Below are positions 6,558-57,922 of a stretch of DNA of 64,000 nucleotides, piece after piece. The DNA comes from an uncultured Bacteroidales bacterium (GTDB lineage Bacteria; Bacteroidota; Bacteroidia; Bacteroidales; Paludibacteraceae), in the NCBI GenBank assembly GCA_900321605.1, contig ONWR01000001.1:78452-142451 (forward strand), in the 5' to 3' direction. A model generated the notes under the pieces. That model saw nothing but the letters and a program-made list of their open reading frames with translations, searched no databases and was not told the origin of the DNA. Each line of letters opens with the position of its first letter. Position 1 is the first letter of the stretch. Both the position numbers and the translations under genes were made by a program.

Positions 6558-6559
6558 TT

Positions 6560-11404: not shown

Positions 11405-11423
11405 GGATAATGATATTTTTTAG

Positions 11424-23777: not shown

Positions 23778-24794
23778 ATGGCAGAATTTGATATAAGAAA
23801 CCAGATGACCGAGAAAGAGCAGGACAATGCCCTGCGTCCTTTATGCTTTGCCGATTTTGCCGGACAGAGCAAGGTCACATCGAACCTCAAGATCTTCGTC
23901 GAGGCAGCTAAACTGCGCGGCGAGAGCTTGGATCATGTGTTGCTCTTCGGCCCTCCGGGACTCGGTAAGACGACCCTCAGCAACATCATCGCCAACGAAC
24001 TCGGCGTCGGGTTCAAAGTGACTTCGGGTCCCGTATTGGACAAACCCGGTGATTTGGCAGGACTACTCACAAGCCTTGAACCCAACGACGTCTTGTTCAT
24101 TGATGAGATCCACCGTCTGAGTCCGATCGTAGAGGAGTACCTCTATTCGGCAATGGAGGACTACCGCATCGACATCATGATCGACAAAGGTCCCTCGGCA
24201 CGCACTATTCAGATCGACCTCAATCACTTCACCCTCATCGGTGCTACTACCCGTAGCGGATTGTTGACAAGCCCGCTCCGTGCGCGTTTTGGTATCAACT
24301 GCCATTTGGAGTACTACGATGCCGACATCCTCGCCGGTATCGTCAAACGTTCGGCACGGCTCTTAGGCGTGGAAATCAACGAGAAAGCGGCAGGCGAGAT
24401 CGCCCGTCGGTCACGCGGTACGCCCCGTATAGCCAACGCCCTGCTGCGTCGTGTGCGTGATTTCGCGCAGGTAAAGGGCAATGGAGCCATCGATTTAGAG
24501 ATCGCCAAATATGCGTTGGAAGCACTTAATATTGACACCTTCGGTCTCGACCAGATCGACAACAAACTGCTCACCACCATCATCGATAAGTTCCGCGGCG
24601 GACCGGTCGGACTCAACACCATCGCTACCGCTATGGGCGAAGATGCCGGTACTATCGAGGATGTGTACGAGCCGTACCTCATCAAAGAGGGCTTCATCAA
24701 ACGTACACCGCGAGGCCGCGAAGCTACCGAACTGGCGTACAAGCACCTCGGCAAGACGATCCTTAGTCCCGACGGACAGCAATCTATGTTTTAA
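23778..24794 (+). CDS. ruvB: Holliday junction branch migration ATPase RuvB
   Basis: Motor of the RuvAB complex that drives branch migration in recombination repair. The 338-aa protein carries the RuvB-N AAA domain: Walker [16 protein letters not shown], Walker [13 protein letters not shown], sensor [11 protein letters not shown] and an arginine-rich [19 protein letters not shown]. The winged-helix C-domain ends with the RuvB-C signature ([21 protein letters not shown]). Start ATG 23778 lies two bases after the preceding stop. Confidence 0.97.
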
Positions 24795-24816
24795 GAAATA
24801 AATAATTACAGATCAT

Positions 24817-26112: not shown

Positions 26113-26150
26113 GAAAAAAAGCATAAAAAGTGCAAAATTATTACAAAAAA

Positions 26151-26182
26151 TTTGGTCATATCAAAAATTTGTTGTAATTTTG
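26151..26182 (+). promoter_or_regulatory. Promoter of the leader RNA/tRNA-Gln/rplY unit
   Basis: TTTG at 26151-26154, TAATTTTG at 26175-26182, 20-bp spacer. The next start codon is over 330 nt away, which makes room for the structured RNA and the tRNA. Confidence 0.8.
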
Positions 26183-26188
26183 CACGCT

Positions 26189-26312
26189 TTTTCGCTAAAA
26201 CCCATTACGGGGTCCCCGAAAATTTCTAATTTTTGGGGAGAGCGGAGGCACAAGTTGCCCGTTCATTAAGCGGAGCGGTATGAACTGTTGCACACTTGTT
26301 GCCGAACGCGAC
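26189..26312 (+). ncRNA. Candidate structured RNA upstream of tRNA-Gln
   Basis: The stretch between the promoter and the tRNA folds well by eye. A 12-bp hairpin TCCCCGAAAATT/AATTTTTGGGGA with a TCT loop (26213-26239) is followed by a long-range stem GGCACAAGT (26247-26255) with ACTTGTTGCC (26294-26303), which encloses GTTCAT/ATGAAC (26261-26266 with 26280-26285). There is no coding potential. It could be an independent small RNA, a 5' precursor that guides tRNA processing, or an rplY leader. I do not recognise it as a named family. Confidence 0.5.
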
Positions 26313-26383
26313 TGTCCACTCGTATATCGGTATTACACCGGATTTTGGTTCCGAGAAGCGAGGTTCGACTCCTCGGTGGACAA
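26313..26383 (+). tRNA. tRNA-Gln (anticodon TTG)
   Basis: Acceptor stem TGTCCAC (26313-26319) pairs with GTGGACA (26376-26382), followed by discriminator A at 26383. The T arm is CGAGG-TTCGACT-CCTCG. The anticodon loop TTTTGGT in CCGGA/TCCGA gives anticodon TTG, reading CAA. The D arm is GTA/TAC. One mismatch (C-A) is at the top of the anticodon stem. CCA is not encoded. Confidence 0.85.
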
Positions 26384-26517
26384 CTCAAGGGTAAACCCCT
26401 CCCTGCCCCTCCCCACAAGGGAGGGCATTTAGTAAAAAGGGGTACGTGTGATGGGATACGGGCAGCATCACGACAATTAACAACTACTGCCCCATATTGA
26501 GTAACACAAATTAAAAA
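26384..26517 (+). other. Leader between tRNA-Gln and rplY with G/C-rich repeat
   Basis: Holds a C-rich/G-rich element (CCCCTCCCTGCCCCTCC, then AAGGGAGGG, about 26396-26428) of the same family as one inside the oxidoreductase gene at 33190-33245. A small stem GTGATG/CATCAC (26448-26473) follows. No second promoter is seen, so rplY is probably transcribed together with the tRNA. Confidence 0.5.
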
Positions 26518-27075
26518 ATGAAAGAATTCGCATTAGTAGGTACTCCGCGTAGCGAGTACGGTAAGAAGGCCGCTAAGGCTCTTCGCGCAGAGGAATTGAT
26601 TCCTTGCAACATCTACGGTTGTGGTCTGAACGCCACCTTCACAGTATCAGCAGCTGACGTTCGCAAGCTCATCTACAGCCCGGACACCCAGATTGTTGAT
26701 CTGACCATCGGTGACACCAAGGCCAAAGCTATCGTTAAAGAGTTGCAGTTCCACCCGATTGACGGCAAAACGCTGCATATTGACTTCCTCGCAGTGGACG
26801 AGAAGAAGCCGGTTGTAGTAGAGATCCCTATTCAGTTGAACGGTCTCGCTGAGGGTGTTAAAGCCGGTGGTAAACTGGTTCAGAACATGCGCAAACTCAA
26901 AGTTCAGGGTATCTACACCGCATTCCCGGATCGCATCAACATCGACGTTACCGAGCTTGGTCTTGGTAAGAAGATCGCCGTTGCTGACGTGAAGATCGAG
27001 GGTCTGAAATTTGTCAACCCTGCTGACGCTTGCGTTGCTGAGGTAAAAGCTACTCGTCAGAGCAAGCAAGGCTAA
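26518..27075 (+). CDS. rplY: 50S ribosomal protein L25/general stress protein Ctc
   Basis: Large-subunit protein binding 5S rRNA, in the longer CTC form with a C-terminal extension; 185 aa. The L25 domain covers about 1-95 (ALVGTPRSEYGKKAAKALRA, then ELQFHPIDGKTLHIDFLAVD) and the TL5-type domain follows (VEIPIQLNGLAEGVKAGGKL). Co-transcription with tRNA-Gln and a structured leader suggests linked control of translation components. Confidence 0.95.
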   Translation: MKEFALVGTPRSEYGKKAAKALRAEELIPCNIYGCGLNATFTVSAADVRKLIYSPDTQIVDLTIGDTKAKAIVKELQFHPIDGKTLHIDFLAVDEKKPVVVEIPIQLNGLAEGVKAGGKLVQNMRKLKVQGIYTAFPDRINIDVTELGLGKKIAVADVKIEGLKFVNPADACVAEVKATRQSKQG

Positions 27076-27173
27076 TGAGTCAAAAGTCGAAAGACAAAAG
27101 ACAAAAGACAGGGGCGAGGCGTTAAACGCCCCGCCTCTCATTTTTAATTCGTAATTTTTAATTTTTAATATAC
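27076..27173. repeat. AAAGACA and TAATTTT heptad arrays
   Basis: AAAGACA units at 27078-27112 and TAATTTT/TAATTCG units at 27138-27172 surround a short GC-rich stretch (GGGGCGAGGCGTTAAACGCC) that can form GGCG/CGCC. The second array reaches the GTG start of pth. Confidence 0.75.
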
Positions 27174-27737
27174 GTGAAATTCCTTATTGTCGGACTTGGA
27201 AATATCGGCGATGAGTACGCCGGTACTCGTCATAACATCGGTTTCATGATGATTGATGCTTTCGCTGCATCGGTTAATGCCACATGGCAGGACAAGCGGT
27301 ACGGCTTTGTAGCCAAATGTCGCGTGAAGAACGCGGAGATGGTCCTGCTCAAACCCTCCACCTATATGAACCTCTCCGGCAATGCCGTGCGCTACTGGCT
27401 CCAACAGGAGAAGATCCCGGTGGAGAACATGCTCGTCTTGGTGGACGACCTCAACCTGCCTTTCGGTACGATACGTATCCGCAAACAGGGTTCCAACGGC
27501 GGACACAACGGACTCGGTAACATACAATCCGTATTAGGAACGGACGCGTACGCACGCGTGCGGTTCGGCATCGGAAACGAGTACACACGCGGTACGCAGA
27601 TCAATTTCGTCTTGGGAGAATGGACCGATGAGGAGAAGAAAAAGATCGATGAGCGTCTGAAAGTGACCACCGAGATCATCCCTTCCTTCTGCCTGCAAGG
27701 CATCGACCGCACGATGAATCAGTTCAACAATAAATGA
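27174..27737 (+). CDS. pth: Peptidyl-tRNA hydrolase
   Basis: Releases tRNA from prematurely dropped peptidyl-tRNA; 187 aa. The N-terminal signature [20 protein letters not shown] carries the catalytic His, with the Asp in [16 protein letters not shown] and GSNGGHNGL following. The start is a GTG at 27174, directly after the heptad array; no ATG is available upstream. Confidence 0.96.
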
Positions 27738-27747
27738 CCCTTCCAAA

Positions 27748-29679
27748 ATGTCGAATCTCAAATCTCACATAGCAAATCACCCTTGGTTTTGTGCAGCTTG
27801 TAATCTTTTGATAGTGATGGCGGCTTATACGCTGTCACGCCTTTTTTTCTTCCTAACGAGTCCGGATCTCTTTCCGAACGTGACGGCGGCTCATCTATGG
27901 GAGATGGTACTTGGCGGTATGCGCTTTGACCTGACGGCTATCCTCTATCTGAGTTCGGTCTATCTGCTTTTGGCATTGTTGCCGCTTCCGATGAAGTGGA
28001 GACAAAATGGTGTATATCAATCGGTTGCCAAGTGGTTCTTCTTGGTACCCAATTTAATCGGTATTGCTGTCAACTGTGCCGACATGGTGTATGTGCGGTT
28101 CACCGACAGACGAACCACCATCACCTTCTTCGATGAGTTCCAGAATGACGGAAACCTGCTCTCTGTCTTTTTGCAAGGCGCTGTGCAATACTGGTACGTG
28201 ACCCTCTTTGCGTTGCTTCTCATGACAGGAGTGGTGATGCTTTTCCGGAAATCATATTTCTCCATGAACGACTCCCGAATCGCTTCGCGTCCATGGATAT
28301 ACTACCCCGTTGAAGTGTTGCTTTTTGTGGTGAGCACGTATTTTATTGTGATCGGCATCCGAGGCGGATTCGGCAAATACACCCGTCCCATCACGCTCAG
28401 CAACGCCCTGCAATATACCGACAGACCGCAGGAGACCATGCTCGTTCTCAACACTCCGTTCTGCATTATGCGTTCTTCCGAAGGAAGCACGTATACCGAT
28501 CCGCATTATTTTGCGGAGGACGAAGTAGCGCAAATCATGACTCCTTGGCATGCACAGCCCTCAGAACCAAAGACTCAGAAACTCAATGTCGTCGTCTTCA
28601 TCTTGGAGTCGTTCGCGGCGGAGCACATCGGTTTTTACAACGAAGGAAGAGGCTACACGCCTTTCTTGGATTCGCTCTTGGCGCAAAGTGTGACGTGGCG
28701 TTACTCTTTCGCTTCCGGTCGCAAGTCGATTGACGCAATGCCTTCGGTACTCTCGTCTATTCCGATGTTGATCAACCCCTATATCGTCACCCCCTATTCC
28801 ACCAACGCCGTCTCTTCTATTGCCGACTGTTTGGGCAACGAAGGCTACACCACAGCTTTCTTCCATGGCGCTCCCAACGGCTCGATGGGATTCCAAGCTT
28901 ATGCCCGTAGTGCCGGGTTTGACAAGTATTACGGTATGGACGAATACCCGAACGCTAATCGCGATTTTGATGGCACTTGGGCGATCTGGGACGAAGAGTT
29001 CCTGCAGTTCTACGCTCACACGATGAGCACGATGACCGAGCCTTTCATGACGGCTGTCTTCACCGCTTCGAGCCATCATCCCTTCAAAGTGCCCGAACGC
29101 TACGAAGGCGTTTTCCCGCAAGGTTCTCAACCGCTTCATCAGTGTATCGGTTACAGCGATCTCGCTATCCGCCGGTTCTTCGAATATGCTAGCACGCAGC
29201 CTTGGTTCGAGAACACGCTGTTTGTCATCACTGCCGATCATACAAACCAACTCTGTACCCCTGCGTACACAAACGCACTCGGTCAATACCGCGTACCGGT
29301 GGCATTCTTCTGTCCGGCTCACCTGCCTGCGGAACAACGAACCGACATCGTCAGCCAGACGGATATTATGCCCTCTGTCTTAGGTTTCACAGGGTACCAA
29401 AAGCCCTATTTCGCTTTCGGCGAGGATGCGCTCACTACCCATAAGCAACATAACTACGCCGTTTGTTACAACAATCCGGTTTTCCAGATCATGAGCGACA
29501 GTCTGCTCATGCAGTTTGACGGAAAAGAGGTGACTTCCCTCTATGCCTACCGAACCGACACGCTGCTCCAACATCCGCTCCCGACCGAACAGGCACCGAC
29601 CGAGATGACCGATTATCTGAAAGCGTATATCCAACAGTATATCCACCGAATGGTGACAAATCAATTGACACATGAGTGA
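27748..29679 (+). CDS. LTA synthase-like sulfatase (phosphoethanolamine/glycerol phosphate transferase type)
   Basis: Inner-membrane alkaline-phosphatase superfamily enzyme, 643 aa. About five TM helices fill the first 210 residues. The extracytoplasmic sulfatase domain begins at VVVFILESFAAEHIGFYNEG, has the nucleophile region near SFASGRKSIDAMPSVLSS and metal sites at VITADHTNQ and SHHPF. It probably transfers a phospho-alcohol group from phospholipid to an envelope glycan; substrate unknown. Its first codons (SNLKSHIANHP) fall in 7-nt-period DNA, so the annotated N-terminus may be partly repeat-derived. Confidence 0.88.
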   Translation: MSNLKSHIANHPWFCAACNLLIVMAAYTLSRLFFFLTSPDLFPNVTAAHLWEMVLGGMRFDLTAILYLSSVYLLLALLPLPMKWRQNGVYQSVAKWFFLVPNLIGIAVNCADMVYVRFTDRRTTITFFDEFQNDGNLLSVFLQGAVQYWYVTLFALLLMTGVVMLFRKSYFSMNDSRIASRPWIYYPVEVLLFVVSTYFIVIGIRGGFGKYTRPITLSNALQYTDRPQETMLVLNTPFCIMRSSEGSTYTDPHYFAEDEVAQIMTPWHAQPSEPKTQKLNVVVFILESFAAEHIGFYNEGRGYTPFLDSLLAQSVTWRYSFASGRKSIDAMPSVLSSIPMLINPYIVTPYSTNAVSSIADCLGNEGYTTAFFHGAPNGSMGFQAYARSAGFDKYYGMDEYPNANRDFDGTWAIWDEEFLQFYAHTMSTMTEPFMTAVFTASSHHPFKVPERYEGVFPQGSQPLHQCIGYSDLAIRRFFEYASTQPWFENTLFVITADHTNQLCTPAYTNALGQYRVPVAFFCPAHLPAEQRTDIVSQTDIMPSVLGFTGYQKPYFAFGEDALTTHKQHNYAVCYNNPVFQIMSDSLLMQFDGKEVTSLYAYRTDTLLQHPLPTEQAPTEMTDYLKAYIQQYIHRMVTNQLTHE

Positions 29680-30082
29680 AGTTCGCGTAGATAAATACCT
29701 CTGGGCGATGCGTATCTATAAGACGCGTTCCATCGCCGCCGACGCTTGTAAGAACGGACGCGTCTCCATCAACGGCGTACAACTCAAGCCGAGCCGTTCG
29801 TTCCATGTGGGAGACATCTTCAACGTCCGCAAAGGACCCGTCACGTACACCTATAAGGTACTACAACTCTCCGAGAACCGCCTCGGTGCCAAACTTGTGC
29901 CCGAATACATGCAGGATTGCACAAGCCCTGCGCAACTGGAGATCCTCGAACTCGCGCGCCTTGCCGGAAACGGCGGACGCGACAGAGGCACTGGTCGTCC
30001 GACCAAGAAAGACCGACGAGACATCGAGACCTTCATGAGTGATAATTACTTAGACGACATTGATTTTGATGATGAAGAGTAA
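29672..30082 (+). CDS. S4-domain RNA-binding protein (Hsp15/HslR-like)
   Basis: A 136-aa protein with an N-terminal S4 fold (RVDKYLWAMRIYKTRSIAAD, then GRVSINGVQLKPSRSFHVGD) followed by a charged C-terminal tail ending in DDIDFDDEE. Hsp15-type proteins bind 50S subunits carrying stalled nascent chains. It overlaps the preceding sulfatase gene by 8 bp and the next gene by 14 bp, so the three are translationally coupled. Confidence 0.9.
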   Translation: MSEVRVDKYLWAMRIYKTRSIAADACKNGRVSINGVQLKPSRSFHVGDIFNVRKGPVTYTYKVLQLSENRLGAKLVPEYMQDCTSPAQLEILELARLAGNGGRDRGTGRPTKKDRRDIETFMSDNYLDDIDFDDEE

Positions 30083-30515
30083 AAAAGAAAATATCGCTGA
30101 ATACATCCTCTATCTTTGGCAGATGGAGGACTACTTGCGTGCTTTTCCGCAGAACGCGGACGCGACGCCGGAGTTGCATGAACTCAACGAGATGATGCAC
30201 CGTGAAGGAATCATGAACGGCGGACATCTGGCTTTGGCCAACAATGCCCTGAACGAACTGGAGGAACTGCACGCGCAGCTCTTGGACGAAGACGCTATGT
30301 ACCGCGCCTCGATCATTCGTCTGCAACCCTCCCTCAACCTCCTCAAGGCAAAAACCGACCGTCCCACGATGAGCGATCTTGAAGCCTGCTTCACCCTGCT
30401 CTACCAGATCATGTTGCTCCATCTGCAGAAACGTCCCGTTTCACCCGAGACCGCGTCAGTTCAGCAGCAAGCGACCAAAGTACTCCGATTCCTAAGCAAT
30501 GCCTACAAATCGTAA
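30069..30515 (+). CDS. DUF4924 family protein
   Basis: A 148-aa, mostly alpha-helical protein (ENIAEYILYLWQMEDYLRAF near the N-terminus, then LNELEELHAQLLDED) resembling the Bacteroidota family DUF4924. No catalytic motif is evident. ATG 30069 or 30072 is used; the start lies within the end of the S4 gene. Function unknown. Next to it, 30516-30573 holds AAATCGT/TCAAATC heptads. Confidence 0.8.
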   Translation: MMKSKKENIAEYILYLWQMEDYLRAFPQNADATPELHELNEMMHREGIMNGGHLALANNALNELEELHAQLLDEDAMYRASIIRLQPSLNLLKAKTDRPTMSDLEACFTLLYQIMLLHLQKRPVSPETASVQQQATKVLRFLSNAYKS

Positions 30516-30573
30516 ATAAAATTCAATCGTCAATAAATCGTACCTCGTAAATCGTCAAATCGTCAATTAAAAT
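30512..30573. repeat. AAATCGT heptad spacer before nth
   Basis: Degenerate 7-nt words (TAAATCG, TCAAATC, GTCAATT) fill this gap and end at the nth start codon. Confidence 0.65.
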
Positions 30574-31209
30574 ATGACACCCCATCATCGTTTTGCACAT
30601 GTTCTCAGTTGGTTTGAAGCCAACATGCCGGTAGCGGAGAGTGAGTTAAACTTCACAAATCCCTTCCAGTGCCTTGTGGCGGTGATGCTCTCCGCCCAAT
30701 GCACCGACAAACGGGTGAACATGGTCACCCCTGCCCTCTTTGCAGCGTACCCCACACCCGAAACCTTGGCCGAAGCCACCTCCGATGAGGTCTTCGAATA
30801 CATCAAATCGGTCAGTTATCCCCGTTCCAAAGCCGAACACCTCGTTCAAATGGCACAACGTCTCGTCTCTGCCTTCCACGGCTTCGTGCCCGATAACATC
30901 GATGACCTTCAGACCCTTCAAGGCGTTGGACGCAAAACGGCGAACGTAGTCTGCGCGGTCATCTGGAATCAACCCACCATGGCGGTGGACACGCATATTT
31001 TTCGGGTCAGCGAACGGCTCGGTCTGACTACCGGCAGCAAGAACCCGCTCCAGACTGAGCGTCAGTTGGTCAAATACATCCCTGCCGACATCATTCCCAA
31101 AGCCCACCACTGGCTCCTTCTGCACGGACGTTACATCTGCCAAGCCCGCAAGCCCAAATGCGAACAATGCGGATTGAGGGAATATTGCAGATTTTTTTCA
31201 AAAAAATAG
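30574..31209 (+). CDS. nth: Endonuclease III (DNA glycosylase/AP lyase)
   Basis: Base-excision-repair enzyme removing oxidised pyrimidines; 211 aa. The HhH motif LQTLQGVGRKTANVV includes the catalytic Lys, the catalytic Asp is in VDTHIFRV, and the C-terminus carries the [4Fe-4S] loop with Cys spacing C-x6-C-x2-C-x5-C (CQARKPKCEQCGLREYC). It ends in a terminator hairpin that overlaps the recA promoter. Confidence 0.96.
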   Translation: MTPHHRFAHVLSWFEANMPVAESELNFTNPFQCLVAVMLSAQCTDKRVNMVTPALFAAYPTPETLAEATSDEVFEYIKSVSYPRSKAEHLVQMAQRLVSAFHGFVPDNIDDLQTLQGVGRKTANVVCAVIWNQPTMAVDTHIFRVSERLGLTTGSKNPLQTERQLVKYIPADIIPKAHHWLLLHGRYICQARKPKCEQCGLREYCRFFSKK

Positions 31210-31240
31210 CACATCTCTTGCACATGTGCTTTTTTTTTTG
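31208..31240 (+). terminator. nth terminator fused to the recA promoter
   Basis: AGCACAT (31208-31214) and ATGTGCT (31224-31230) form a 7-bp stem followed by T10. The loop contains CTTG (31217-31220), the -33 box of recA, and the T-run is the spacer to the -7 box. Confidence 0.7.
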
Positions 31241-31248
31241 TACCTTTG
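31217..31248 (+). promoter_or_regulatory. recA promoter
   Basis: CTTG at 31217-31220 and TACCTTTG at 31241-31248, 20-bp spacer. The palindrome GCACATGTGC (31220-31229) begins at the -33 box. I see no classical LexA box. The leader (31258-31296) is AAATGGT/AAATGAT heptads. Confidence 0.75.
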
Positions 31249-31296
31249 CACCCGCTAAATGAACAAATGGTAAATGATTAAATTGTAAATAGTTTT

Positions 31297-32337
31297 ATGG
31301 CAGAAAAACAAGCACCGAATGCAGACAAACTGAAAGCGCTGCAGGCAGCGATGGCTAAGATTGACAAGAACTACGGCAAAGGCGCCATCATGAAACTGGG
31401 CGACGAGAATATCGAGAACGTACCCGTGATCCCCACCGGCAGTCTGGGGCTGAACTACGCCCTCGGCGTTGGCGGTTACCCCAAAGGACGTATTATCGAG
31501 ATCTACGGTCCCGAGTCGTCCGGTAAAACGACCCTCGCTATTCACGCGATGGCGGAAGTACAAAAACAAGGCGGCATCGCCGCTATCATCGACGCCGAGC
31601 ACGCCTTCGACCGTTTTTACGCAGAGAAACTCGGTGTGAACATCGCCGAACTGTTGATCTCTCAGCCCGATAGCGGCGAGCAAGCACTGGACATCGCCGA
31701 CGAACTCATCCGCTCGGCGGCAGTGGATCTCATCGTCATCGACTCTGTCGCAGCCCTCACCCCGAAAGCGGAGATCGCAGGCGATATGGGCGATAACAAA
31801 GTGGGACTGCAAGCACGTCTGATGTCGCAGGCACTGCGTAAGATGACTGCTTCCGTCAACAAAACAGGTACCACCGTCATCTTCATCAACCAGCTGCGCG
31901 AGAAGATCGGCGTCATGTTCGGAAACCCCGAAACAACCACCGGCGGTAACGCCCTCAAGTTCTACGCCTCTGTCCGTCTCGACATCCGCAAGACGGGTCA
32001 GATCAAAGACGGCGAGCAGATCAAGGGTAACCAAGTGCGCGTCAAAGTGGTGAAAAACAAAGTGGCTCCTCCTTTCAAGAAAGCCGAGTTCGACCTCATG
32101 TTCAACGAAGGTATCTCGCGCATCGGTGAGATCTTGGATTTCGCAGTCGCTACCGAGGTCATCAAGAAAAGCGGTTCGTTCTTCTCGTACGGAGACACCA
32201 AACTTGGTCAAGGACGCGATAAGGTCAAAGAGGTGCTTGCTGACAATCCTGATCTGTGCGAAGAACTCGAAGCTAAGATCAGCGAGCAAGTAAAAGAAAT
32301 GGGTCTGGAGAACGTCCTTTCGAAAATTGGAAAATAA
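31297..32337 (+). CDS. recA: Recombinase RecA
   Basis: ATP-dependent DNA strand-exchange protein and SOS co-protease; 346 aa. Walker A is [14 protein letters not shown], Walker [13 protein letters not shown], the L1/L2 loop regions are [18 protein letters not shown] and [20 protein letters not shown], and the C-terminal domain is complete. The next gene starts inside its last codons (10-bp overlap). Confidence 0.98.
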
Positions 32338-33979
32338 GCAATACATATTGTCCCCGCGCGAAGCGCACGAAGCGGAGCAGAAATGGCGGGTAGTGAAACG
32401 TTCAGTAGATGCACGGCAGCGAGATTTGCGCGTGCATCTTACTGTTCTTACGGATGATCAAGGCAAACCCATCGCCAAAGATGCGCCGATTCCGCTCTAT
32501 GAGCCGCCTGTCTTCCAAGATGTACATCATGCCAAACGGGAGGCTGTCATCATCGGCGCAGGTCCCGCAGGACTGTTTGCTGCCCTCACCCTCATCGAAC
32601 ATGGCATCAAACCCATCATTTACGAAAGAGGAAAGGAAGTAAGCGAAAGGAAAAAAGATATCGCATTGCTGAACCGAAACGAGGGGCTGAATCCCGAGTC
32701 GAACTACTGCTTCGGCGAAGGAGGAGCCGGTACGTTCTCCGACGGCAAACTCTTCTCCCGTTCCAAAAAACGCGGAAACATGCAGCGCGTCATGGAGCTC
32801 TTCCATTTCTTCGGAGCACCCGACACCGTCCTCTACGAAGCACACGCGCATATCGGTTCCGACAAACTGCCCACCATCATCAAAAACATGCGCGAATGTA
32901 TCCTCGCTCATGGCGGAGAAATCCATTTCGAGACGAAAGTCGAGTCCCTAAAAAATCTATCAGCGAAGCGGTCTGTCAGTGAAACGGTCTGTCAGCAAAG
33001 CGGTCTGTCAGCCGAAGGCGGTCTATCGTTGGCGGTGCCAACGATATTGGCGATCGGGCACTCGGCACATGATACATATAGGATGTTAGCAGCCGAAGGC
33101 GTAGCCCTTGAGACCAAAGGCTTTGCTATGGGCGTACGCGCTGAACATCAGCAAGCACTCATTAACAGGCTCATGTATCATCTGACAAAACCCCACCTAA
33201 CCTCCCCACAAGGGAGGAACACTCCCCTTGAGGGGGAGAAGGAGGGGGTTATCAAATTTGTCGGCAATGCCTCCTATTCGCTCGTTACCCAGGTCGATGG
33301 ACGAGGGGTCTATTCGTTCTGTATGTGTCCGGGCGGACACATCGTTCCGGCGGGTAGCACACCCGACACCTGTGTCGTCAACGGAATGTCCGCTTCCCAC
33401 CGCAACTCGCCTTTCGCCAACTCAGGCATGGTCGTACAGATCAATCCCGAAGACATCCCGGGCAACGATCCCCTCCGAGGACTCGAATACCAAGAAGCCC
33501 TTGAACGCCTCGCTTACAGCGAAGCTATCCTACAGCGAAGCGGTCTTACAGGCGAAGCCGATCCTACAGCCGAAGGCGGTCTTACAGCGAAGCGGTCAGC
33601 CGTTGCGCCAGCGCAACGGCTACGCGACTTCGTAGAAGGACGTCCCTCCAAGAACCTGCCGCCTTGCAGCTACCTGCCGGGCATCGTCCCCTCACGCCTC
33701 GACCAGTGGTTACCGCCTCATATCGGCAAACGTCTCCAACAGGGCTTCCGCGACTTTGACAAGAAATATCCGGGCTTCCTTACCAACGAGGCAGTCATCC
33801 TTGGTGTCGAGAGCCGAAGTAGCAGCGCCGTGCGTATCCCTCGTGATCCCGAGACCCTTCAATCTGTCTCCACACCCGGGCTATACCCCTGTGGCGAAGG
33901 AGCCGGCTACGCAGGAGGAATCACCTCTTCCGCACTCGATGGCATCAACGCTGCCCTCAAAATAGCCGACTTGGCATGA
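32327..33979 (+). CDS. NAD(P)/FAD-dependent oxidoreductase (COG2509 type) with three repeat inserts
   Basis: Flavoprotein dehydrogenase of 550 aa, cytoplasmic, unknown substrate. FAD binding is shown by [20 protein letters not shown] (about 75-95) and the C-terminal [36 protein letters not shown] and [12 protein letters not shown] are family segments. Three low-complexity blocks interrupt it: 32955-33044 (16-nt hairpin array, about residues 209-239), 33186-33252 (C/G-rich repeat, about 287-309) and 33523-33622 (hairpin array, about 398-431). All keep the frame open. The start is TTG at 32327, overlapping recA; no in-frame ATG exists upstream of the FAD motif. Confidence 0.88.
32955..33044. 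repeat. Intragenic 16-nt hairpin array A
   Basis: GTCTGTCA starts at 32971, 32987 and 33003 (16-nt period), separated by GCGAAGC, GTGAAAC and GCAAAGC, then GCC-GAA-GGC and CGTTGGC-GGT-GCCAACG. The repeat is read in changing frames because 16 is not a multiple of three, yet no stop codon arises. Confidence 0.85.
33186..33252. repeat. Intragenic C/G-rich repeat B
   Basis: AACCTCCCCACAAGGGAGG followed by CTCCCCTTGAGGGGGAG and GGAGGGGGTT forms nested hairpins. It is related to the element in the rplY leader at about 26396-26428. Confidence 0.7.
33523..33622. repeat. Intragenic hairpin array C
   Basis: CTTACAGCGAAGC, CCTACAGCGAAGC, CTTACAGGCGAAGCC, CCTACAGCCGAAGGC and CTTACAGCGAAGC in succession, ending with a 10-bp stem GCCGTTGCGC/GCGCAACGGC with a 2-nt loop (33599-33620). 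Confidence 0.85.
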
Positions 33980-38010: not shown

Positions 38011-38364
38011 ATGAGTCAAGTCTCTTTGAACAGCCCCCTCAAGACCCTCTCCGGCAAACTGAACCGCCATTCCGACCTCGTCTTTGTCACGCGCCATCGC
38101 ACAGAGAGCGTCTCCACCCGCACGCTCTCTTCTTCCTCCGCCTCACCCGCATCGTGCATGAATGCACGATCATCCTCCCCCTCTCCTGCTCAACAACGAG
38201 CACAGAACGACTTTACCCAACTCCGCCGCCAAGCGCAGTATATCCTCGCCACTCCCTCTCTCCGCGACCGCTATCTCCGTCAATGGACCAAGCAGCACAG
38301 GTTCCACACCCTCCTTGGCTTTATCATGCACTCCCTCTCTGTATCGTGCATTGATGCACGATAA
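38011..38364 (+). CDS. Small hypothetical protein with hairpin insert, paralogue of upstream gene
   Basis: 117 aa. The N-terminal GKLN motif and the C-terminal helices align with the upstream small protein. The middle (about residues 42-56, Ser/Pro-rich) contains the 20-bp hairpin ATCGTGCAT/ATGCACGAT at 38151-38170, and the same hairpin occurs again at 38343-38362, covering the stop codon. The middle segment therefore looks like inserted repeat DNA. Coding status is moderately supported by the shared motif. Confidence 0.6.
   Translation: MSQVSLNSPLKTLSGKLNRHSDLVFVTRHRTESVSTRTLSSSSASPASCMNARSSSPSPAQQRAQNDFTQLRRQAQYILATPSLRDRYLRQWTKQHRFHTLLGFIMHSLSVSCIDAR
38343..38362. repeat. Second copy of the ATCGTGCAT/ATGCACGAT hairpin
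   Basis: Nine-bp stem with a TG loop, identical in stem to the copy at 38151-38170 (loop GA). The TAA stop of the small gene begins on its last base. Confidence 0.8.
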
Positions 38365-46159: not shown

Positions 46160-46386
46160 AAAGAAATTTGTTTGTTGATATTAAATTTTGATTTTTTAGT
46201 TTTACCATGTATTCAGATACTATAAGTATCAAATGCGGCGCAAAATTACACAAAATCCGTCATTCTAATGTGGAAAAATTGACGGAAATGATAGAAATAC
46301 ACATTTTTTTGCAAAATTGACTTTACAAAATGCACATCGTACATCGTACATCATACATCGTACATCGTACATCGTACATCTTTCCT
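46160..46386. promoter_or_regulatory. Upstream region of susC with weak promoter and heptads
   Basis: On the - strand TAATTTTG (46241-46248) is a good -7 box but no TTTG is present at the -33 distance, suggesting activator dependence. A GATACT-ATA-AGTATC hairpin (46216-46230) lies in the leader. TACATCG heptads occupy 46330-46383, up to the stop of topB. Confidence 0.5.
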
Positions 46387-48339
46387 TCAAAACGGTTCCG
46401 CATAGGTACAGCCCTCGCGCCAGCGGGAACAACCGTAACGAGTGTTACCGCGGATGATGAGTCCCTGACGACAAACAGGACAAAGCATACCGGCTTTGTT
46501 CGATTTGACATCCCGAACGACACCGGTTGTCATCTCTTTGAGTTCGTTCAAAAACTCCAACGCCTGATACTCTCCACGCTCTATCTCACGCAGTTTCTTC
46601 TCCCATAGACCGGTCAGTTCAGCGGACTTCAGCAGCGGAGAGACAATCAGATGAATCAGATTGATACCCGTCTCCGTAGCCCTGAGGCTCTTTCCTTGTT
46701 TCTGGATATACTTGCGCTGATAGAGTTTCTCGATAATAGCCGCACGGGTAGAAGGACGTCCGATACCGTTCTCCTTCATCGCCTCCCGCAGTTCATCGTT
46801 CTCCACCGTCTTACCTGCGGTCTCCATCGCACGCAGCAGAGTCGCCTCGGTATAGTACTTCGGCGGTGTGGTCGTTTTCTCTTTCAATACCGGCTCATGA
46901 GGACCGCTCTCGCCCTTCACAAACGCCGGTAAAGACTTGGCATCATCATTAAGCGAAGCGTCACCATTCTCATCATTGAGTTCGCTCTGCGAACGATCAT
47001 TACCAAATACTGCTCTCCACCCGGGTTTGAGCACTTCTCTACCCGTCACTTTGAAATCGATCTCACCTGCTTTTGCCAAAACCGTCGTATTACTTACCTC
47101 GCATTCAGGATAGAACGCCGCAATGAAATGCAGTGCCACCAAGTCATACACTTTCTTCTCATCCGCGGTCAGACCTTCCGGACGCTGCCCCGTCGGGATG
47201 ATAGCATGGTGGTCGGTCACTTTCTTGTTATCAAACACTTTTTTTGACTTAGGCAACGAACCCGCCCCTTTCTTACCGTCCGCCTTGAGTCCCAACAGAG
47301 GCGTTACTTGCGGATAATAATCCTTGATACCCGCTAAGGTATTCGGCACTTTGGGGTAAATATCATCGCTCAGATAAGTGGTATCCACACGCGGATACGT
47401 CGTCACGCGTTTCTCGTACAGCGATTGAATGAGTTGCAGGGTCTGTTCTGCCGAGAACGAGAATTTCTTATTGCAATCCACCTGCAAGGATGTCAAGTCA
47501 TACAGTTTAGGGGCAAACTCCAAACCCTCTTTCTTCTCCACGGACGTGATCACAAACGGCTGATCTTTGATGCTGTCCACCAGCGCTTGTCCCTGTTCTT
47601 CGCTCGTGATAGCATATTCGCCTTCTTCTACCGGCAGTTGTGCGCTGAAGAGCGTATCGCGGTAGTTGGTCTTCAGCTCCCAATATGTCTTCGGCACGAA
47701 ATGCTCTATCTCTGCCTGTCTCTTGACCACCAGCGCTAATGTCGGAGTCTGCACGCGTCCCACAGACAGCACTTGTCGGTCTTTTCCCGTCCCACGCGCG
47801 TACCTTATAGTATATGCGCGCGTAGCGTTCATGCCCAATAGCCAATCGCCTATGGCTCGCATCATACCTGCCTCATACAGATGTTGGTACTCGCTTTGGT
47901 CTTTGAGTTGCGCAAACCCTTCACGGATAGCGTCTTCCGTCAACGAACTAACCCACAGACGTTTCACCGGACATTTGCAACCTGCCTGCTGATAGACCCA
48001 ACGCTGGATCAACTCTCCCTCTTGCCCGGCATCACCGCAGTTAATCACCTCGTCGGCTTGTTCGATCAAGGATTTGATGACATTGAATTGTTTGTGTACA
48101 CCCTCATCTCCATGCACTTTGATGGAGAAACGTGCCGGAATCATCGGCAGCGAACTCAGGCTCCATGCTTTCCATTGCTCCGTATATTCCTGCGGATCGA
48201 GCAACGCGCAGAGATGACCGAATGTCCAAGTAACTTGGTATCCGTTCCCTTCAAAATATCCGTTCTTGCGCTGATTAGCTCCCAGCACTCGGGCAATGTA
48301 CTCCCCCACGGACGGTTTCTCTGCTACGCAAACGACCAT
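46387..48339 (-). CDS. topB: DNA topoisomerase III with repeat insert
   Basis: Type IA topoisomerase, 650 aa. The TOPRIM domain starts VVCVAEKPSVGEYIARVLG with the acidic NCGDAGQEGELIQ; the catalytic Tyr is in VTTYPRVDTTYLS; a C-terminal Zn ribbon reads CPVCRQGLIIRGNTRYGC. Residues about 445-467 (SELNDENGDASLNDDAK) derive from repeat DNA at 46938-47003 with TCATCATT linkers and the hairpins GCGAAGC and GTTCGC-TCT-GCGAAC. Chromosomal, not plasmid-like: no mobilisation genes nearby. Confidence 0.94.
   Translation of the reverse strand: MVVCVAEKPSVGEYIARVLGANQRKNGYFEGNGYQVTWTFGHLCALLDPQEYTEQWKAWSLSSLPMIPARFSIKVHGDEGVHKQFNVIKSLIEQADEVINCGDAGQEGELIQRWVYQQAGCKCPVKRLWVSSLTEDAIREGFAQLKDQSEYQHLYEAGMMRAIGDWLLGMNATRAYTIRYARGTGKDRQVLSVGRVQTPTLALVVKRQAEIEHFVPKTYWELKTNYRDTLFSAQLPVEEGEYAITSEEQGQALVDSIKDQPFVITSVEKKEGLEFAPKLYDLTSLQVDCNKKFSFSAEQTLQLIQSLYEKRVTTYPRVDTTYLSDDIYPKVPNTLAGIKDYYPQVTPLLGLKADGKKGAGSLPKSKKVFDNKKVTDHHAIIPTGQRPEGLTADEKKVYDLVALHFIAAFYPECEVSNTTVLAKAGEIDFKVTGREVLKPGWRAVFGNDRSQSELNDENGDASLNDDAKSLPAFVKGESGPHEPVLKEKTTTPPKYYTEATLLRAMETAGKTVENDELREAMKENGIGRPSTRAAIIEKLYQRKYIQKQGKSLRATETGINLIHLIVSPLLKSAELTGLWEKKLREIERGEYQALEFLNELKEMTTGVVRDVKSNKAGMLCPVCRQGLIIRGNTRYGCSRWREGCTYAEPF
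46938..47003. repeat. Intragenic hairpin array in topB
   Basis: CATCATTA-GCGAAGC-GTCACC and CATCATTGA-GTTCGC-TCT-GCGAAC-GATCATTACC: a constant TCATCATT-type linker alternates with short-loop hairpins, the same design as elsewhere with a different linker. Confidence 0.75.
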
Positions 48340-52153: not shown

Positions 52154-53365
52154 ATGACGCAACAGGATTTATTGGCTATCAAACAGCGGTTCGGCATCAT
52201 TGGCAACAGTCCTCTGCTGAACCGAGATATAGAAATCGCCGTGCAGGTTGCCCGCACGGATTTGAGCGTGCTCATCACCGGTGAGTCCGGTGTCGGTAAG
52301 GAGCATTTCCCGAAAGTGATACATGCTTTCTCAGCCCGCAAACACGGACCTTATTTCGCCGTCAACTGCGGTGCTATCCCCGAAGGAACCATCGATTCCG
52401 AACTCTTCGGACATGAGAAAGGAGCCTTCACGGACGCGAAAGCTGAACACAAAGGCTATTTCGAGATCGCCGACGGCGGTACGCTGTTCTTGGACGAAGT
52501 GGGTGAACTGCCGATGCAGACCCAAGTGCGTCTGCTCCGTGTGTTGGAGACAGGCGAATACCTGCGTATGGGCTCCAGTACGGTGCGCAAAACGAACGTT
52601 CGCGTCGTTGCGGCTACGAACCTCAACATGCGTCAGGCAATCGACGACGGACGGTTCCGCGAAGACCTCTATTACCGTCTCAATACGGTAGAGATACGCG
52701 TACCCGCATTGCGCGAGCGAAAAGAGGATATACCGCTCCTCTTCCGTAAGTTCGCCGTTGATTTCTGCAACCGTTACCAGATGCCGCCTCTCTCCCTCAA
52801 CGAAGAGGCAACACGGCTACTCCAGAACTCCTATTGGCGCGGAAACATCCGTCAGCTCAAGAACCTTGCCGAGCAGATGTCCGTCATCGAACTGGATCAT
52901 CAGATCAATGCCGACACTCTCCGCAAATACCTGCCGCAGGAAGAGAACCGTCAGGACTTAGTCCTCCGCACGCCGACGCAGCAAGCCGGAAAAGACTACT
53001 CCCACGAACTCGGCATTCTCTATAACATGGTCATTCAGAACCGCCAAGAGATAGAAGAACTACGCCAACTGCTGCAGGACGGTCGCCATCACGAGATGCA
53101 CAAATCACGAGAGCACGAAAATCGCATTCCTGCTTCCACCACGTACGACATTACTGCGCCCCGTTCGACCGAGGAGATTCACCCGTCCCGCGAAGCCGAA
53201 GAGATCATCCCTATTGAGGAGTCGTCTCTCCGCATCGAAGATGGCGAGAAAGAACTCATCCGCCGCGCACTCGAACTGACAGCAGGCAACCGAAAAGAAG
53301 CTGCCGCACGGCTCGGCTTCTCAGAAAGAACCCTTTATCGCAAAATCAAAGAATATGATCTATAA
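52154..53365 (+). CDS. Sigma-54-type AAA+ activator with Fis HTH, no receiver domain
   Basis: 403 aa. AAA+ domain: Walker A TGESGVGKE (42-50), GAFTDA at 90-95 in place of the canonical GAFTGA, Walker B GGTLFLDEVGELP, arginine-finger region FREDLYYRLNTVEIRVP. The C-terminal Fis HTH is NRKEAAARLGFSERTLYRKI. There is no N-terminal sensor or receiver, so activity is constitutive or controlled by expression. Start at 52154, since the longer frame begins before the promoter. It overlaps lptE by 11 bp, a gene order (activator, lptE, secG) known in Bacteroidota. Confidence 0.9.
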   Translation: MTQQDLLAIKQRFGIIGNSPLLNRDIEIAVQVARTDLSVLITGESGVGKEHFPKVIHAFSARKHGPYFAVNCGAIPEGTIDSELFGHEKGAFTDAKAEHKGYFEIADGGTLFLDEVGELPMQTQVRLLRVLETGEYLRMGSSTVRKTNVRVVAATNLNMRQAIDDGRFREDLYYRLNTVEIRVPALRERKEDIPLLFRKFAVDFCNRYQMPPLSLNEEATRLLQNSYWRGNIRQLKNLAEQMSVIELDHQINADTLRKYLPQEENRQDLVLRTPTQQAGKDYSHELGILYNMVIQNRQEIEELRQLLQDGRHHEMHKSREHENRIPASTTYDITAPRSTEEIHPSREAEEIIPIEESSLRIEDGEKELIRRALELTAGNRKEAAARLGFSERTLYRKIKEYDL

Positions 53366-53924
53366 ATCCAACAGCCCGAAGGGCGGTCTTACAGCGCAGC
53401 GGTCTTACAGCGTCAGCGGTCTTACAGCACACCTCGTGTGCGGTCTGCTGCTGCTCATTATGAGCAGCTGCTCTGTGAGTTTCAAACTGAACGGTGCCAA
53501 CATCAACTACCAGACCACGCACTCTATCGGCATCTCGGACTTCCCGAACAATGCGCCGATGGTCAACCCGACGCTGAGCAATGCGCTCACGGAGGAGATA
53601 CGCGATCTCTATCAGCGTCAAACGCGCCTCCAGATCCTCCGCAAAGGCGGTGATCTCGAACTCGAAGGCTCCATCATCGGCTACGACCTCTCGCAGGGTG
53701 CCATCAGTGTGGACAGCTACGCTTCGGAGAGCAAACTGACAATCCGCGTTTCCGTGCGGTTCACCAATAACATCAACCCCGAAGAGTCGTTTGAGAAGAC
53801 CTATACAGCGTACCAGACCTTCGACGCTGCCCTCCTCCTGTCCGACGTGCAAGATGAGCTTTGCGCCACGATGATACGTGAGATTGCAGAGAATATTTAC
53901 AACGATACAGTAGCAAAATGGTAA
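53355..53924 (+). CDS. lptE: LptE-family LPS assembly lipoprotein with repeat-built signal region
   Basis: Outer-membrane lipoprotein that plugs the LptD barrel; 189 aa. The body shows SVSFKLNGANINYQTTHSIG and NPTLSNALTEEIRDLYQRQT, typical of Bacteroidota LptE. Residues about 7-38 are encoded by the 16-nt hairpin array (53370-53468), including the hydrophobic core and lipobox (LLLIMSSC) made by the 8-bp hairpin GCTGCTCA-TTA-TGAGCAGC. The signal is still plausible: basic N-region, hydrophobic stretch, SSC. The start overlaps the activator's stop. Confidence 0.88.
   Translation: MIYKSNSPKGGLTAQRSYSVSGLTAHLVCGLLLLIMSSCSVSFKLNGANINYQTTHSIGISDFPNNAPMVNPTLSNALTEEIRDLYQRQTRLQILRKGGDLELEGSIIGYDLSQGAISVDSYASESKLTIRVSVRFTNNINPEESFEKTYTAYQTFDAALLLSDVQDELCATMIREIAENIYNDTVAKW
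53370..53468. repeat. Hairpin array encoding the LptE signal region
   Basis: GGTCTTACA linkers start at 53385, 53401 and 53418, separated by CAGCCC-GAA-GGGCG, GCGCAGC, GCGTCAGC, GCACAC-CTC-GTGTGC (53427-53441) and GCTGCTCA-TTA-TGAGCAGC (53450-53468). Same linker as arrays A and C in the oxidoreductase gene. Confidence 0.85.
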
Positions 53925-54168: not shown

Positions 54169-54176
54169 TACCTTTG
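54145..54176 (+). promoter_or_regulatory. secG promoter
   Basis: TTTG at 54145-54148, TACCTTTG at 54169-54176, 20-bp spacer lying in the terminator's right arm and T-run. The leader to the ATG (54343) is about 160 nt and carries the 16-nt repeat array. Confidence 0.78.
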
Positions 54177-54192
54177 CACCCGATTTTGAGAT

Positions 54193-54320
54193 TGCCTTTC
54201 CGTAAAGCAGTCTATTAATGAGATTGTCTTTCTGTGAAATGGTCTGTCAGCGAAGCGGTCTGTCAGTGAAACGGTCTGTCAGAGAAGCGGTCTGTCAGCG
54301 AAGCGGTCTATTAATTTAAA
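54193..54320. repeat. 16-nt hairpin array in the secG leader (about 8 units)
   Basis: GGTCTGTCA begins at 54241, 54257, 54273 and 54289, and GGTCTATTA at 54305: an exact 16-nt period. Variable 7-mers are GCGAAGC, GTGAAAC, GAGAAGC and GCGAAGC. Three degenerate units precede from 54193. It would be transcribed as the 5' leader of secG. Confidence 0.88.
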
Positions 54321-54342: not shown

Positions 54343-54711
54343 ATGTACATTTTTATTACTATCTTAATTGTCTTTGCCGCCGTTCTGCTGACGCTTTTGG
54401 TGTTGGTACAGAATAGTAAAGGCGGTGGTCTGGCTGCCGGTTTCGCGAGCGGCAACCAGGTGATGGGTGCGCCCCGTACGGCAGACTTCTTGGAGAAAGC
54501 TACATGGACGCTGATTGCGGTGATTGTTGCTTTCAGCATTGCTGCTGTTGGTTTCAATGCCGGTAATAACGCTTCTTCGGACGATCAATCCGCTATCCAA
54601 GTAGAGGAAGTAGCTCCCGAAGCTGCTCCTGTAGCAGAGCCCGCATCCGAGTCCGCTCCTGCTGCAGCTCCTGCTGCAGAGCCTGCTGCTGAACTCCCCG
54701 CACAGGACTAA
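54343..54711 (+). CDS. secG: Preprotein translocase subunit SecG
   Basis: Small inner-membrane subunit of SecYEG, 122 aa. Two TM helices (FITILIVFAAVLLTLLVLVQ and TLIAVIVAFSIAAVGF) flank the conserved cytoplasmic loop NSKGGGLAAGFASGNQVMGA. The C-terminal tail is Ala/Pro/Glu-rich (AAPAAEPAAE-like), common in Bacteroidota SecG. A terminator follows 18 bp later. Confidence 0.95.
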   Translation: MYIFITILIVFAAVLLTLLVLVQNSKGGGLAAGFASGNQVMGAPRTADFLEKATWTLIAVIVAFSIAAVGFNAGNNASSDDQSAIQVEEVAPEAAPVAEPASESAPAAAPAAEPAAELPAQD

Positions 54712-57610: not shown

Positions 57611-57922
57611 TATTTAGGCGAAATTATTAAATATGCTCGCATAATTTTATGATTTTGACTAAATAGTTGTTATTTGCACGTCAGTGCGACAGTAATTTCG
57701 AGGTGGGACGGCAAAGCCGTGTCGGTGTCCTCGAAGTTACTATATTTGATATACACAACTTTTTCACGAACAATTTTATATTTTCGTAAATTTTTGATCA
57801 TTACAAAACCCTTATAAAACTCTTACAAAACTCTTATAAAACTCTTATAAAACTCTTACAAAACTCAACAACCCCGCCGGAAGGCAGGGTTGTTAAGTTA
57901 TTTCGCCGGAAAGGCGGGAGGG
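57611..57922. repeat. Gene-free stretch: long hairpin, 11-nt repeats, C/G hairpins
   Basis: 57691-57741 is a 51-nt hairpin: AGTAATTTCGAGG pairs with CCTCGAAGTTACT (13 bp, one G.U), with ACGGC-AAA-GCCGT inside. 57803-57867 is about six copies of an 11-nt unit (ATAAAACTCTT/ACAAAACTCTT). 57868-57895 is copy 3 of the AACAACCCCGCC/GGCAGGGTTGTT hairpin with a GGAA loop, followed by CGCC-GGAAA-GGCG. No gene is visible. Confidence 0.7.

Follow-up and report, generated by a model that had tools for sequence, protein, structure and literature searches.

Constant linkers and changing mini-hairpins: a dispersed repeat system in Paludibacteraceae genomes

Introduction

Short tandem and palindromic repeats take several described forms. 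CRISPR arrays are built from repeats of about 23–47 nt separated by unique foreign spacers, the heptanucleotide repeats of cyanobacteria are known as STRRs, and the double-hairpin elements are palindromes of organellar genomes. Heptamer tandem repeats such as TAACTGA are described from Beggiatoaceae, Cyanobacteria and Bacteroidetes as dispersed over patchy lineages, often intergenic and sometimes in genes, and as arising by an unknown mechanism (PMC4679880), while the GGGAATC repeats of Xanthomonas are described with inverted arrangements and possible stem-loops (PMC4692102). REP sequences are characterized as carrying a GTAG or CGTC terminal tag and stems of 5–13 bp, with some copies within genes and complementary changes in their stems (PMC3733652). 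For the Rickettsia palindromic elements (RPEs), the account of the one tested case is that guanylate kinase with an insert is active and has a changed affinity for its substrate (PMC2229807). Small hairpins that spread in organellar genomes and vary between relatives, among them the repetitive hairpin elements of sponges, are described in PMC2800124, and the palindromes of Volvox are presented as small hairpins with preferred short loops (PMC2670323). The Borg extrachromosomal elements are described as having tandem repeats in reading frames, which give rise to disordered stretches and have a hot spot (PMC9879509). In DNA biophysics, extraordinary stability and resistance to nucleases and heat are reported for mini-hairpins whose loop is GNA or GNNA (any N) and whose stem has at least two G-C pairs (PMC4686876).

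Here, we describe a family of repeat arrays found in a window of 64 kb, by which we mean the whole stretch of DNA that was analysed (bases 78452–142451 of its contig). The genome to which it belongs (G000) is a draft of 2.3 Mb in 64 contigs and is 95% complete. The arrays work like RPEs and heptamer repeats, yet lack a defining feature tested for each. With RPEs and the coding palindromes of Wolbachia they share palindromic DNA that lies both between genes and, in frame, within conserved ones; 126 of 203 arrays are of the in-frame kind, and their Pfam-matched hosts include chorismate synthase, LpxB, RecF/SMC, UvrD and RlmN. RPEs, however, are single long stem-loops of 105–146 bp with terminal inverted repeats, whereas the arrays here consist of tandem modules of 16–20 nt, each with a short hairpin; unlike in RPEs, the linker is fixed while the hairpins change, and unrelated repeats can occupy the same site in sister species. 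Heptamer repeats are likewise short, dispersed and direct, but a constant linker alternating with a covarying hairpin is no part of their descriptions, and in place of the direct 7-nt tandem unit of heptamers and STRRs the unit is here a linker plus a hairpin, mostly 16 nt, with true 7–8-mers occurring separately in the window.

The likeness to REP/RAYT systems lies in short dispersed palindromes, some of them in genes, and in complementary stem changes, but the stem has 2 bp in 376 of 482 gaps between linkers, there is no association with a Y1 transposase, and the array flanks (..CA and GG..) are set by the linker and not by a REP tag. A CRISPR form is not found either, the linker being of 9 nt and the palindromic gaps, mostly of 7–16 nt, lying inside unrelated genes. 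The original prediction had set the arrays apart from standard IS, REP and CRISPR, and judged by form they are indeed neither a CRISPR nor a GTAG/CGTC REP. Organellar palindromes are mainly noncoding and, by their descriptions, have no fixed 9-nt linker; Borg repeats belong to different genetic elements and, by their description, have no hairpin grammar. The loop rule is shared with the d(GCGAAGC) mini-hairpins, whose sequence is that of the commonest array unit, but this class is described as a biophysical and aptamer motif (PMC4686876), whereas a third of the genomic stems contain an A-T pair. No description of these arrays was found in the literature searched, which mostly excluded subscription journals, so that an earlier description is possible; matches to exact array words and peptides included a bifidobacteria primer.

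Repeat arrays in the window

The exact linker GGTCTKWCA occurs 12 times in the window, against an expectation of 1.78 (sd 1.32), and none of 100 shuffles reached 12. Across the whole of G000 there are 103 linkers compared with 45 for a reversed control pattern, and 19 linker pairs at exactly 16-nt spacing compared with 0. The linkers of the window fall in four arrays (32954–33019, 33513–33597, 53365–53441 and 54225–54308), which are set out below with their host genes and with the arrays that have other linkers.

54169–54177, plus strand: promoter-like −7 box TACCTTTGC, upstream of the secG-leader array
54225–54308, plus strand: secG-leader array; degenerate first unit 54225–54240, last letters GGTC
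54241–54249, 54257–54265, 54273–54281 and 54289–54297, plus strand: strict linkers of the secG-leader array, in steps of exactly 16; hairpins in order GCGAAGC, GTGAAAC, GAGAAGC, GCGAAGC
54343–54711, plus strand: secG (Pfam PF03840, SecG), with the array in its leader
53355–53924, plus strand: lptE (Pfam PF04390, LptE)
53365–53441, plus strand: lptE array, at the N-terminus of the gene; linkers start at 53365, 53385, 53401 and 53418; hairpins GCCCGAAGGGC, GCGCAGC, GCGTCAGC, GCACACCTCGTGTGC
32327–33979, plus strand: FAD-dependent oxidoreductase gene (Pfam PF21688; alignment to 3nlc, VP0956), with two arrays, both in frame
32954–33019, plus strand: oxidoreductase site A array; linkers start at 32954, 32970, 32986 and 33002; hairpins GCGAAGC, GTGAAAC, GCAAAGC, GCCGAAGGC
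33024–33046, plus strand: 10-bp hairpin immediately 3′ of the site A array
33513–33621, plus strand: oxidoreductase site B array, with a terminal 11-bp hairpin at 33598–33621
6558–6727: intergenic array with linker TTGTTTG; hairpins GGACTNCGTCC, GCTTCGC, AACTTCGTT; here the minus strand has the GNA loops
9451–9503: short intergenic array with linker TTGTTTG
14083–14155: intergenic array with linker GTTAAAGAGTTAAAATG; hairpins GTGCTGCGCAC, GTCGCTACGCGAC
46938–47003: hairpins in an ATCATT-type context, within a DNA topoisomerase gene (46387–48339, minus strand)

The secG-leader array is placed between a promoter-like box and the start codon of secG. This box, TACCTTTGC, resembles a −7 box of the Bacteroidetes type, and TACCTTTG lies at most 320 nt from secG in 19 of 24 genus loci (own locus counted). 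One of the hairpins, GAGAAGC, is imperfect, as an A faces a G. The lptE array codes for residues that precede a hydrophobic, lipoprotein-like segment. In the oxidoreductase gene, the palindrome at 33024–33046 is maintained with altered loops in the congeners L169–L172, and at site B longer hairpins set a distance of 36 nt between the strict linkers at 33542 and 33578, an interval that includes the relaxed linker GATCCTACA at 33560.

The original prediction read 54193–54320 as GGTCT[TG][AT]CA alternating at an exact 16-nt period with 7-mers such as GCGAAGC, GTGAAAC and GCGCAGC. The linker and its period are real, with strict linkers starting at 54241, 54257, 54273 and 54289, and the first two 7-mers are present; GCGCAGC is absent there and belongs to the lptE array. 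Exactness of the period holds for the secG leader and fails at the 36-nt gap between 33542 and 33578 and at one 17-nt step in the lptE array. The same linker does occur at the three further places named (here at 32970–33010, 33542–33586 and 53385–53426), and the other-linker arrays are likewise present, with TTGTTTG at 6558–6727 and 9451–9503, GTTAAAGAGTTAAAATG at 14083–14155, and a further array at 46938–47003.

The window also holds other repeats. A second intragenic hairpin family, CCCACCTAACCTCCCCACAAGGGGAGG, lies at 33190–33260 in the oxidoreductase gene (about residues 288–305); a copy of CCCTCCCCACAAGGGAGGG is found near tRNA-Gln, at 26407–26425; and a 9–10-bp palindrome, ATCGTGCAT/ATGCACGAT, has two copies about 190 nt apart (38151–38170 and 38342–38363), one within the ORF 38011–38364 and the other at its end. 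Separate tandem repeats of 7–11 nt, with units ATCATAC, AGAATTC, ATTTGAC, ACATCGT and TTACAAAACTC, occupy 8646–8699, 11422–11466, 15688–15728, 16068–16126, 46334–46380 and 57801–57866. The GC skew turns from positive to negative at about 24000–32000, with its cumulative maximum in the 16–24-kb block, as expected near a replication terminus. At gathering thresholds, Rfam matched only the tRNA-Gln (26313–26383) in the whole window, and the arrays were without a match.

Hairpin grammar

Units were collected as 482 gaps of 5–30 nt between relaxed linkers, [GA][GA]TC[TC][TGA][AT]CA. Part of this collection comes from a purine/pyrimidine search pattern applied collection-wide (at least 117 stretches, with all 117 used), and because such a pattern favours palindromes, a bias-free subset of 113 of the 482 units was kept separate, with units of the own genome, units retrieved by an N7 pattern and units of loci picked by protein or family. 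The gap, stem and 203-array counts include two loci, L080 and L115, in which the pattern is matched by 8-mers in tandem and there is no hairpin array.

The linkers are constant, at about 9 nt (GGTCTTACA, GGTCTGTCA, GGTCTTTCA). Between them, gaps of 7 nt predominate (327), followed by those of 8 (48), 9 (33) and 11 nt (29), with fewer of other lengths and no gap of 10 nt. Two or more Watson-Crick pairs form a stem in 452 of the 482 gaps (shuffled mean 39) and in 104 of the 113 gaps of the subset (shuffled mean 8.8). Most stems are short: 2 bp in 376 gaps, 3 bp in 34, 4 bp in 32 and 5–6 bp in 10, with 30 gaps under 2 bp. The stem bases change in pairs, and pairing is kept. Among the 327 seven-mers, positions 2 and 6 are C-G in 220, T-A in 95 and otherwise in 12, while positions 1 and 7 are G-C in 304, A-T in 18 and otherwise in 5. 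The corresponding counts in the subset are 52, 20 and 3 for positions 2 and 6, thus paired in 72 of 75 (shuffle mean 44, maximum 55), and 71 G-C and 4 A-T for positions 1 and 7, paired in 75 of 75.

The loops follow a rule of their own. GNA loops close 249 of 312 paired seven-mers (63 of 72 in the subset) and GNNA loops 38 of 44 paired eight-mers (10 of 11); of the 38 GNNA loops, 29 are GNYA, with a pyrimidine in third place, and 9 are GNRA. A GNA loop accompanies a T-A closing pair in 92 of 95 cases and a C-G pair in 157 of 217 (p = 7e-8), or 20 of 20 and 43 of 52 in the subset (p = 0.055). It is as if the weak T-A-closed stems needed the best loop, although CpG-like mutation could be an alternative origin of this association. 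GCGAAGC is the commonest unit (82 of 327 seven-mers). Two G-C pairs are found in 202 of the 327 and are combined with a GNA loop in 143, so that many units fall outside the strictly reported stable class. Longer gaps have their own forms: 26 of 33 nine-mers are GGC-NNN-GCC, 15 of 29 eleven-mers are GTCC-NNN-GGAC, and 9 of 17 fifteen- and sixteen-mers read RY-GA-RY-N3/4-RY-GA-RY, which would allow tandem sheared G-A pairs. Such pairs favour a Y-GA-R context. On inspection by eye, snap-back extension of the linker was discarded as the origin of the longer stems: their additional pairs (GGC..GCC, GTCC..GGAC) are no copy of the linker end.

A fixed linker with a varying hairpin, and GNA loops as the common trait, had been the core of the original prediction, and the gap, stem-pair and loop counts bear it out. 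Nearest-neighbour folding of the secG-leader array gave no gain over shuffles on the two strands (DNA z 0.69 and −0.18; RNA z 0.64 and 0.23). The folding parameters may lack the special stability of GNA loops; as folding was no better than shuffles, the structural claim rests on the grammar and the literature.

Distribution across taxa

The original prediction proposed a search of the genome and its relatives for linkers at 16-nt spacing. Beside the 19 pairs of G000, such pairs are found in 27 of 61 genomes of the genus (own genome counted), and the reversed control gives 0 in all 61. In a sample of the family, 3 of 120 genomes have them, each from the own genus (where 8 were sampled, own counted), with 0 of 112 in 32 other genera; in a sample of the class, 2 of 395 have them, namely G000 and the Flavobacteriales MAG NORP269 (G163). 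Among the matches listed, 72 of 80 are titled Paludibacteraceae, Bacteroidales or Bacteroidia, many of them from herbivore rumen or gut, and judging by these titles the genus is probably one of uncultured gut Paludibacteraceae. Pairs also occur in four other Bacteroidetes MAGs, three of them titled Saprospiraceae (3, 7, 7 and 1 pairs), and in Lentisphaera marina (3 pairs in tandem), the reversed control being 0 throughout. Horizontal spread and convergence are both possible sources of the linker in the Saprospiraceae, the Flavobacteriales MAG and L. marina. Linkers resemble each other more within than between genomes (likeness 0.50 versus 0.34; 71 arrays in 11 genomes; 1 of 2000 permutations). 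Viral carriage was also considered and set aside, the linker-pair pattern having 0 matches in the viral contigs searched.

Hairpin arrays with other linkers extend further. The pattern GCGAAGC N5-14 GCGAAGC matches in 127 of 395 class genomes, and because the reversed control overlaps the motif (GCGAAGCG) and many matches are chance-like, only the strong outliers G411, G313 and G370 were considered. G313 (linker AAAATAAC) and G370 have the same grammar with other linkers. The array of G370 (L335, on G370:C11; also L336) is very long and noncoding, with 57 hairpin cores, flanking heptamer repeats and AATAATC/ACGTAAGC/CATAAAC-like linkers, and in G411 GCGAAGC recurs in simpler runs, spaced by 9 nt. 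The arrays examined in G313, G370, G411 and G163 contain no open frame.

Position in genes

By mechanical ORF calls (frames of at least 100 aa), the 203 distinct arrays divide into 126 in sense orientation within genes, 13 antisense and 64 intergenic. The in-frame insertion of arrays in protein genes was missed by the original prediction. Intergenic arrays are flanked by +/+ genes in 16 cases, −/− in 20, +/− in 10 and −/+ in 6, one side being unknown in 12. The evenness of +/+ and −/− (p = 0.62) argues that there is no strand preference where a reading frame is not at stake. Within genes, the sense bias is explained by the reading frames of the units: those with GCGAAGC, GCGCAGC, GCAAAGC, ACGCAGT, GGCGAAGCC and GTCCGCAGGAC are free of stops in all sense frames with each of the three linkers, while their complements, the GGCGAAGCC unit excepted, are closed in all three frames. 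The GTGAAAC and GTGTAAC units have a stop in one sense frame each. All three phases of the first linker are used, unevenly (45, 35 and 12; n = 92).

Pfam hosts among 14 array-bearing frames scanned in G000 include chorismate synthase, LpxB, an RlmN-like protein, an O-methyltransferase and Dus, as well as a periplasmic binding protein, a universal stress protein, SusD, UvrD and a RecF/SMC-type protein with two arrays. In several hosts the domain match encloses the array, for example in chorismate synthase (match 26–375, array 100–119) and LpxB (39–396, array 202–220); in SusD and UvrD the array falls outside it. A single frame at L235:6455–7726 joins a PcrB-like region (85–247), an array (residues 263–277) and a deaminase-like region (281–423); this frame has a second array upstream, and some congeners have other repeats at this place.

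Variation between species

All comparisons of presence, absence and alleles are between species. The flanks of 84 in-gene arrays were sought across the collected loci, and 68 had a match elsewhere; a repeat-free allele is defined as one with neither linker nor script-detected tandem repeat. On this definition, 39 of 58 in-gene sites have at least two distinct alleles, 23 have a repeat-free allele and 9 have another tandem repeat. The protein segment GHWxEGLYSH, for example, is found in L047 and L144, and is 60 nt longer, with an array, in L105 and L107. Where orthologous arrays have equal unit layout, 39 stem pairs are unchanged, 4 are changed on both sides with pairing kept and 1 is broken. 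Arrays absent elsewhere in the genome, or fixed across relatives, were what the original prediction said would count against it; they prove to be genome-wide, and they are missing from, or differ in, sister species.

Site A of the oxidoreductase is legible in 29 of 30 genus loci (own counted; L166–L195 region). Six have one to four GGTCT-type units, varying with species, four have C-rich AACCTCCCCACAAGGGGAGG hairpins, three combine a CCAATA linker with other hairpins, and others have 7–8-nt tandem repeats such as AAATCAC, GGAAAATG, GAGGTTA or AGTCGAA; a few short loops are without an obvious repeat, and L192 has a long, ordinary, non-repeat stretch. By script, the 30 distinct alleles comprise 6 arrays, 12 other tandem repeats and 12 with neither, of which 4 are the C-rich hairpins, and at least 22 of the 30 genus alleles have some repeat, of several unrelated kinds, at this site (window 32950–33050). 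The CCCACCTAACCTCCCCACAAGGGGAGG hairpin family fills site A in the four congeners L167, L168, L178 and L180. Aligned with the solved structure 3nlc, sites A and B both contain gaps. Of 30 loci, 24 have a secG match (own counted); the secG leader holds an array in 9 of these, a single linker in 1 and neither in 14. Ahead of lptE, the leader array runs forward in the own genome and three congeners and backward in L211 and L212, the latter judged by eye.

Candidate enzymes

The original prediction pointed to a RAYT-like gene or a dedicated nuclease, and neither is borne out in the families tested. A search of G000 at E ≤ 0.001 gave no member of the Y1 transposase family (PF01797). At the same threshold the family is present in 22 of 61 genus genomes, 18 of them over cut-off, and in 11 of 27 genomes with arrays versus 11 of 34 without (p = 0.59). 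Y1 transposase and arrays being thus unassociated in the genus, an origin from RAYT/IS200 is not supported. For the nuclease, only SbcD was considered. It is over the curated cut-off in 10 of 61 genus genomes, with some match at E ≤ 0.001 in 32 of 61, and arrays occur in 2 of the 10 genomes over cut-off versus 25 of the 51 others; the rarity of arrays with SbcD is not significant (p = 0.16). The idea that the arrays result from a loss of SbcCD, a hairpin nuclease, was rejected, because the rate across the class (71 of 395 genomes over cut-off) is like that of the genus (p = 0.86) and because SbcD is present in G411, G370 and G313, genomes with hairpin arrays of other kinds.

Proposed mechanism and alternatives

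The two readings offered at the outset, replication slippage or a mobile palindromic element, are still the best. We favour, with a probability of about 0.5, an account in which the arrays are dispersed, modular and selfish at the level of DNA, amplified as mini-hairpins by slippage and template switching, and tolerated in leaders and protein loops. How they amplify and disperse, and whether they are selfish or neutral, we infer from the patterns above, and support for the mechanism is moderate. On this account, the gap on one strand would fold into a short stem, mostly of 2 bp and up to 6, with a loop that is mainly GNA or GNNA. Lagging-strand synthesis or repair would leave that strand single; the hairpin would then stall synthesis, and the identical linkers would let the strand realign, so that units are gained or lost. 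Intrastrand template switching in the quasi-palindrome would rewrite one arm from the other, and stems would drift while remaining paired. As a mere example of such chemistry, human polymerase theta is reported to extend a folded strand whose 3′ end has two paired bases (PMC11292364). Whole arrays would now and then be copied to new loci in an ectopic step. No dedicated enzyme would be required; of the two families examined, neither Y1 transposase nor SbcD tracks the arrays. Arrays would persist where harm is small, in gene leaders, intergenic gaps and tolerant protein loops, helped within genes by most unit types being stop-free in sense frames.

A bolder form of the same idea, which we regard as tentative and on balance doubtful, takes the arrays as minimal DNA replicators with single-strand folding as their sole fitness trait. 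Nuclease-resistant mini-hairpins of about 7 nt would be amplified between direct repeats and reseeded at new loci, as single-stranded fragments that survive or as repair templates, without an encoded enzyme; they would have colonised core genes because most units can be read in all three sense frames, and would have remodelled protein loops across the genus.

Dispersed copies with genome-biased linkers, array-free orthologous sites and a patchy spread that takes in distant taxa would also fit a non-autonomous mobile element, whose linker and hairpin are recognised by a transposase or dedicated enzyme as in REP with RAYT or a MITE. We consider this unlikely, since no Y1 transposase was found in G000 (E ≤ 0.001) and the family is unassociated with arrays in the genus (11/27 vs 11/34), the variable, mostly 2-bp stems offer an enzyme little to read, and the viral contigs gave no match. 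That arrays are kept by selection on the protein, as disordered or flexible linkers of the kind proposed for Borg tandem repeats, is quite unlikely. The 126 of 203 arrays in sense within genes and the other repeats carried by the same loops in sister species speak for it; however, the paired base changes keep a nucleic-acid stem while often altering residues, first linkers use all three phases, though unevenly (45, 35 and 12 of 92), 64 of 203 arrays are intergenic, those examined in G313, G370, G411 and G163 are without an open frame, and 23 of 58 sites have an orthologue without a detected repeat.

Ordinary microsatellite slippage of a 16-nt sequence, with a chance palindrome and a hairpin without a role, would be in keeping with the many 7–11-nt tandem repeats of the same window and with such repeats at the same protein sites in sister species. 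It would not lead one to expect paired changes, a GNA/GNNA rule or several stem lengths between constant linkers, and we hold it to be very unlikely. The least probable account places the element in RNA, as hairpins in mRNA leaders or coding regions that tune translation, stability or termination. Arrays do stand upstream of the start codon in 9 of 24 secG leaders (own counted) and in sense orientation within genes, but outside genes their orientation is even (16 +/+, 20 −/−), and RNA folding does not surpass that of shuffles on either strand. Moreover, RNA would favour GNRA, whereas four-base loops are mostly GNYA (29, against 9 GNRA), wobbles are rare (7 of sense type and 4 of antisense type among 654 pairs), and the Rfam match in the window is a tRNA alone.

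Significance

The arrays are a real, ordered and unexpectedly widespread repeat system. They tie the GNA mini-hairpin of DNA biophysics to a natural family of repeats that is spread over the genome and has a grammar that can be read, and provide about 200 natural cases (203 arrays) of the birth, correction and spread of bacterial palindromes and of the ways in which core proteins tolerate in-frame inserts. They are also a warning to annotators that the variable linkers of these proteins may be driven by DNA.
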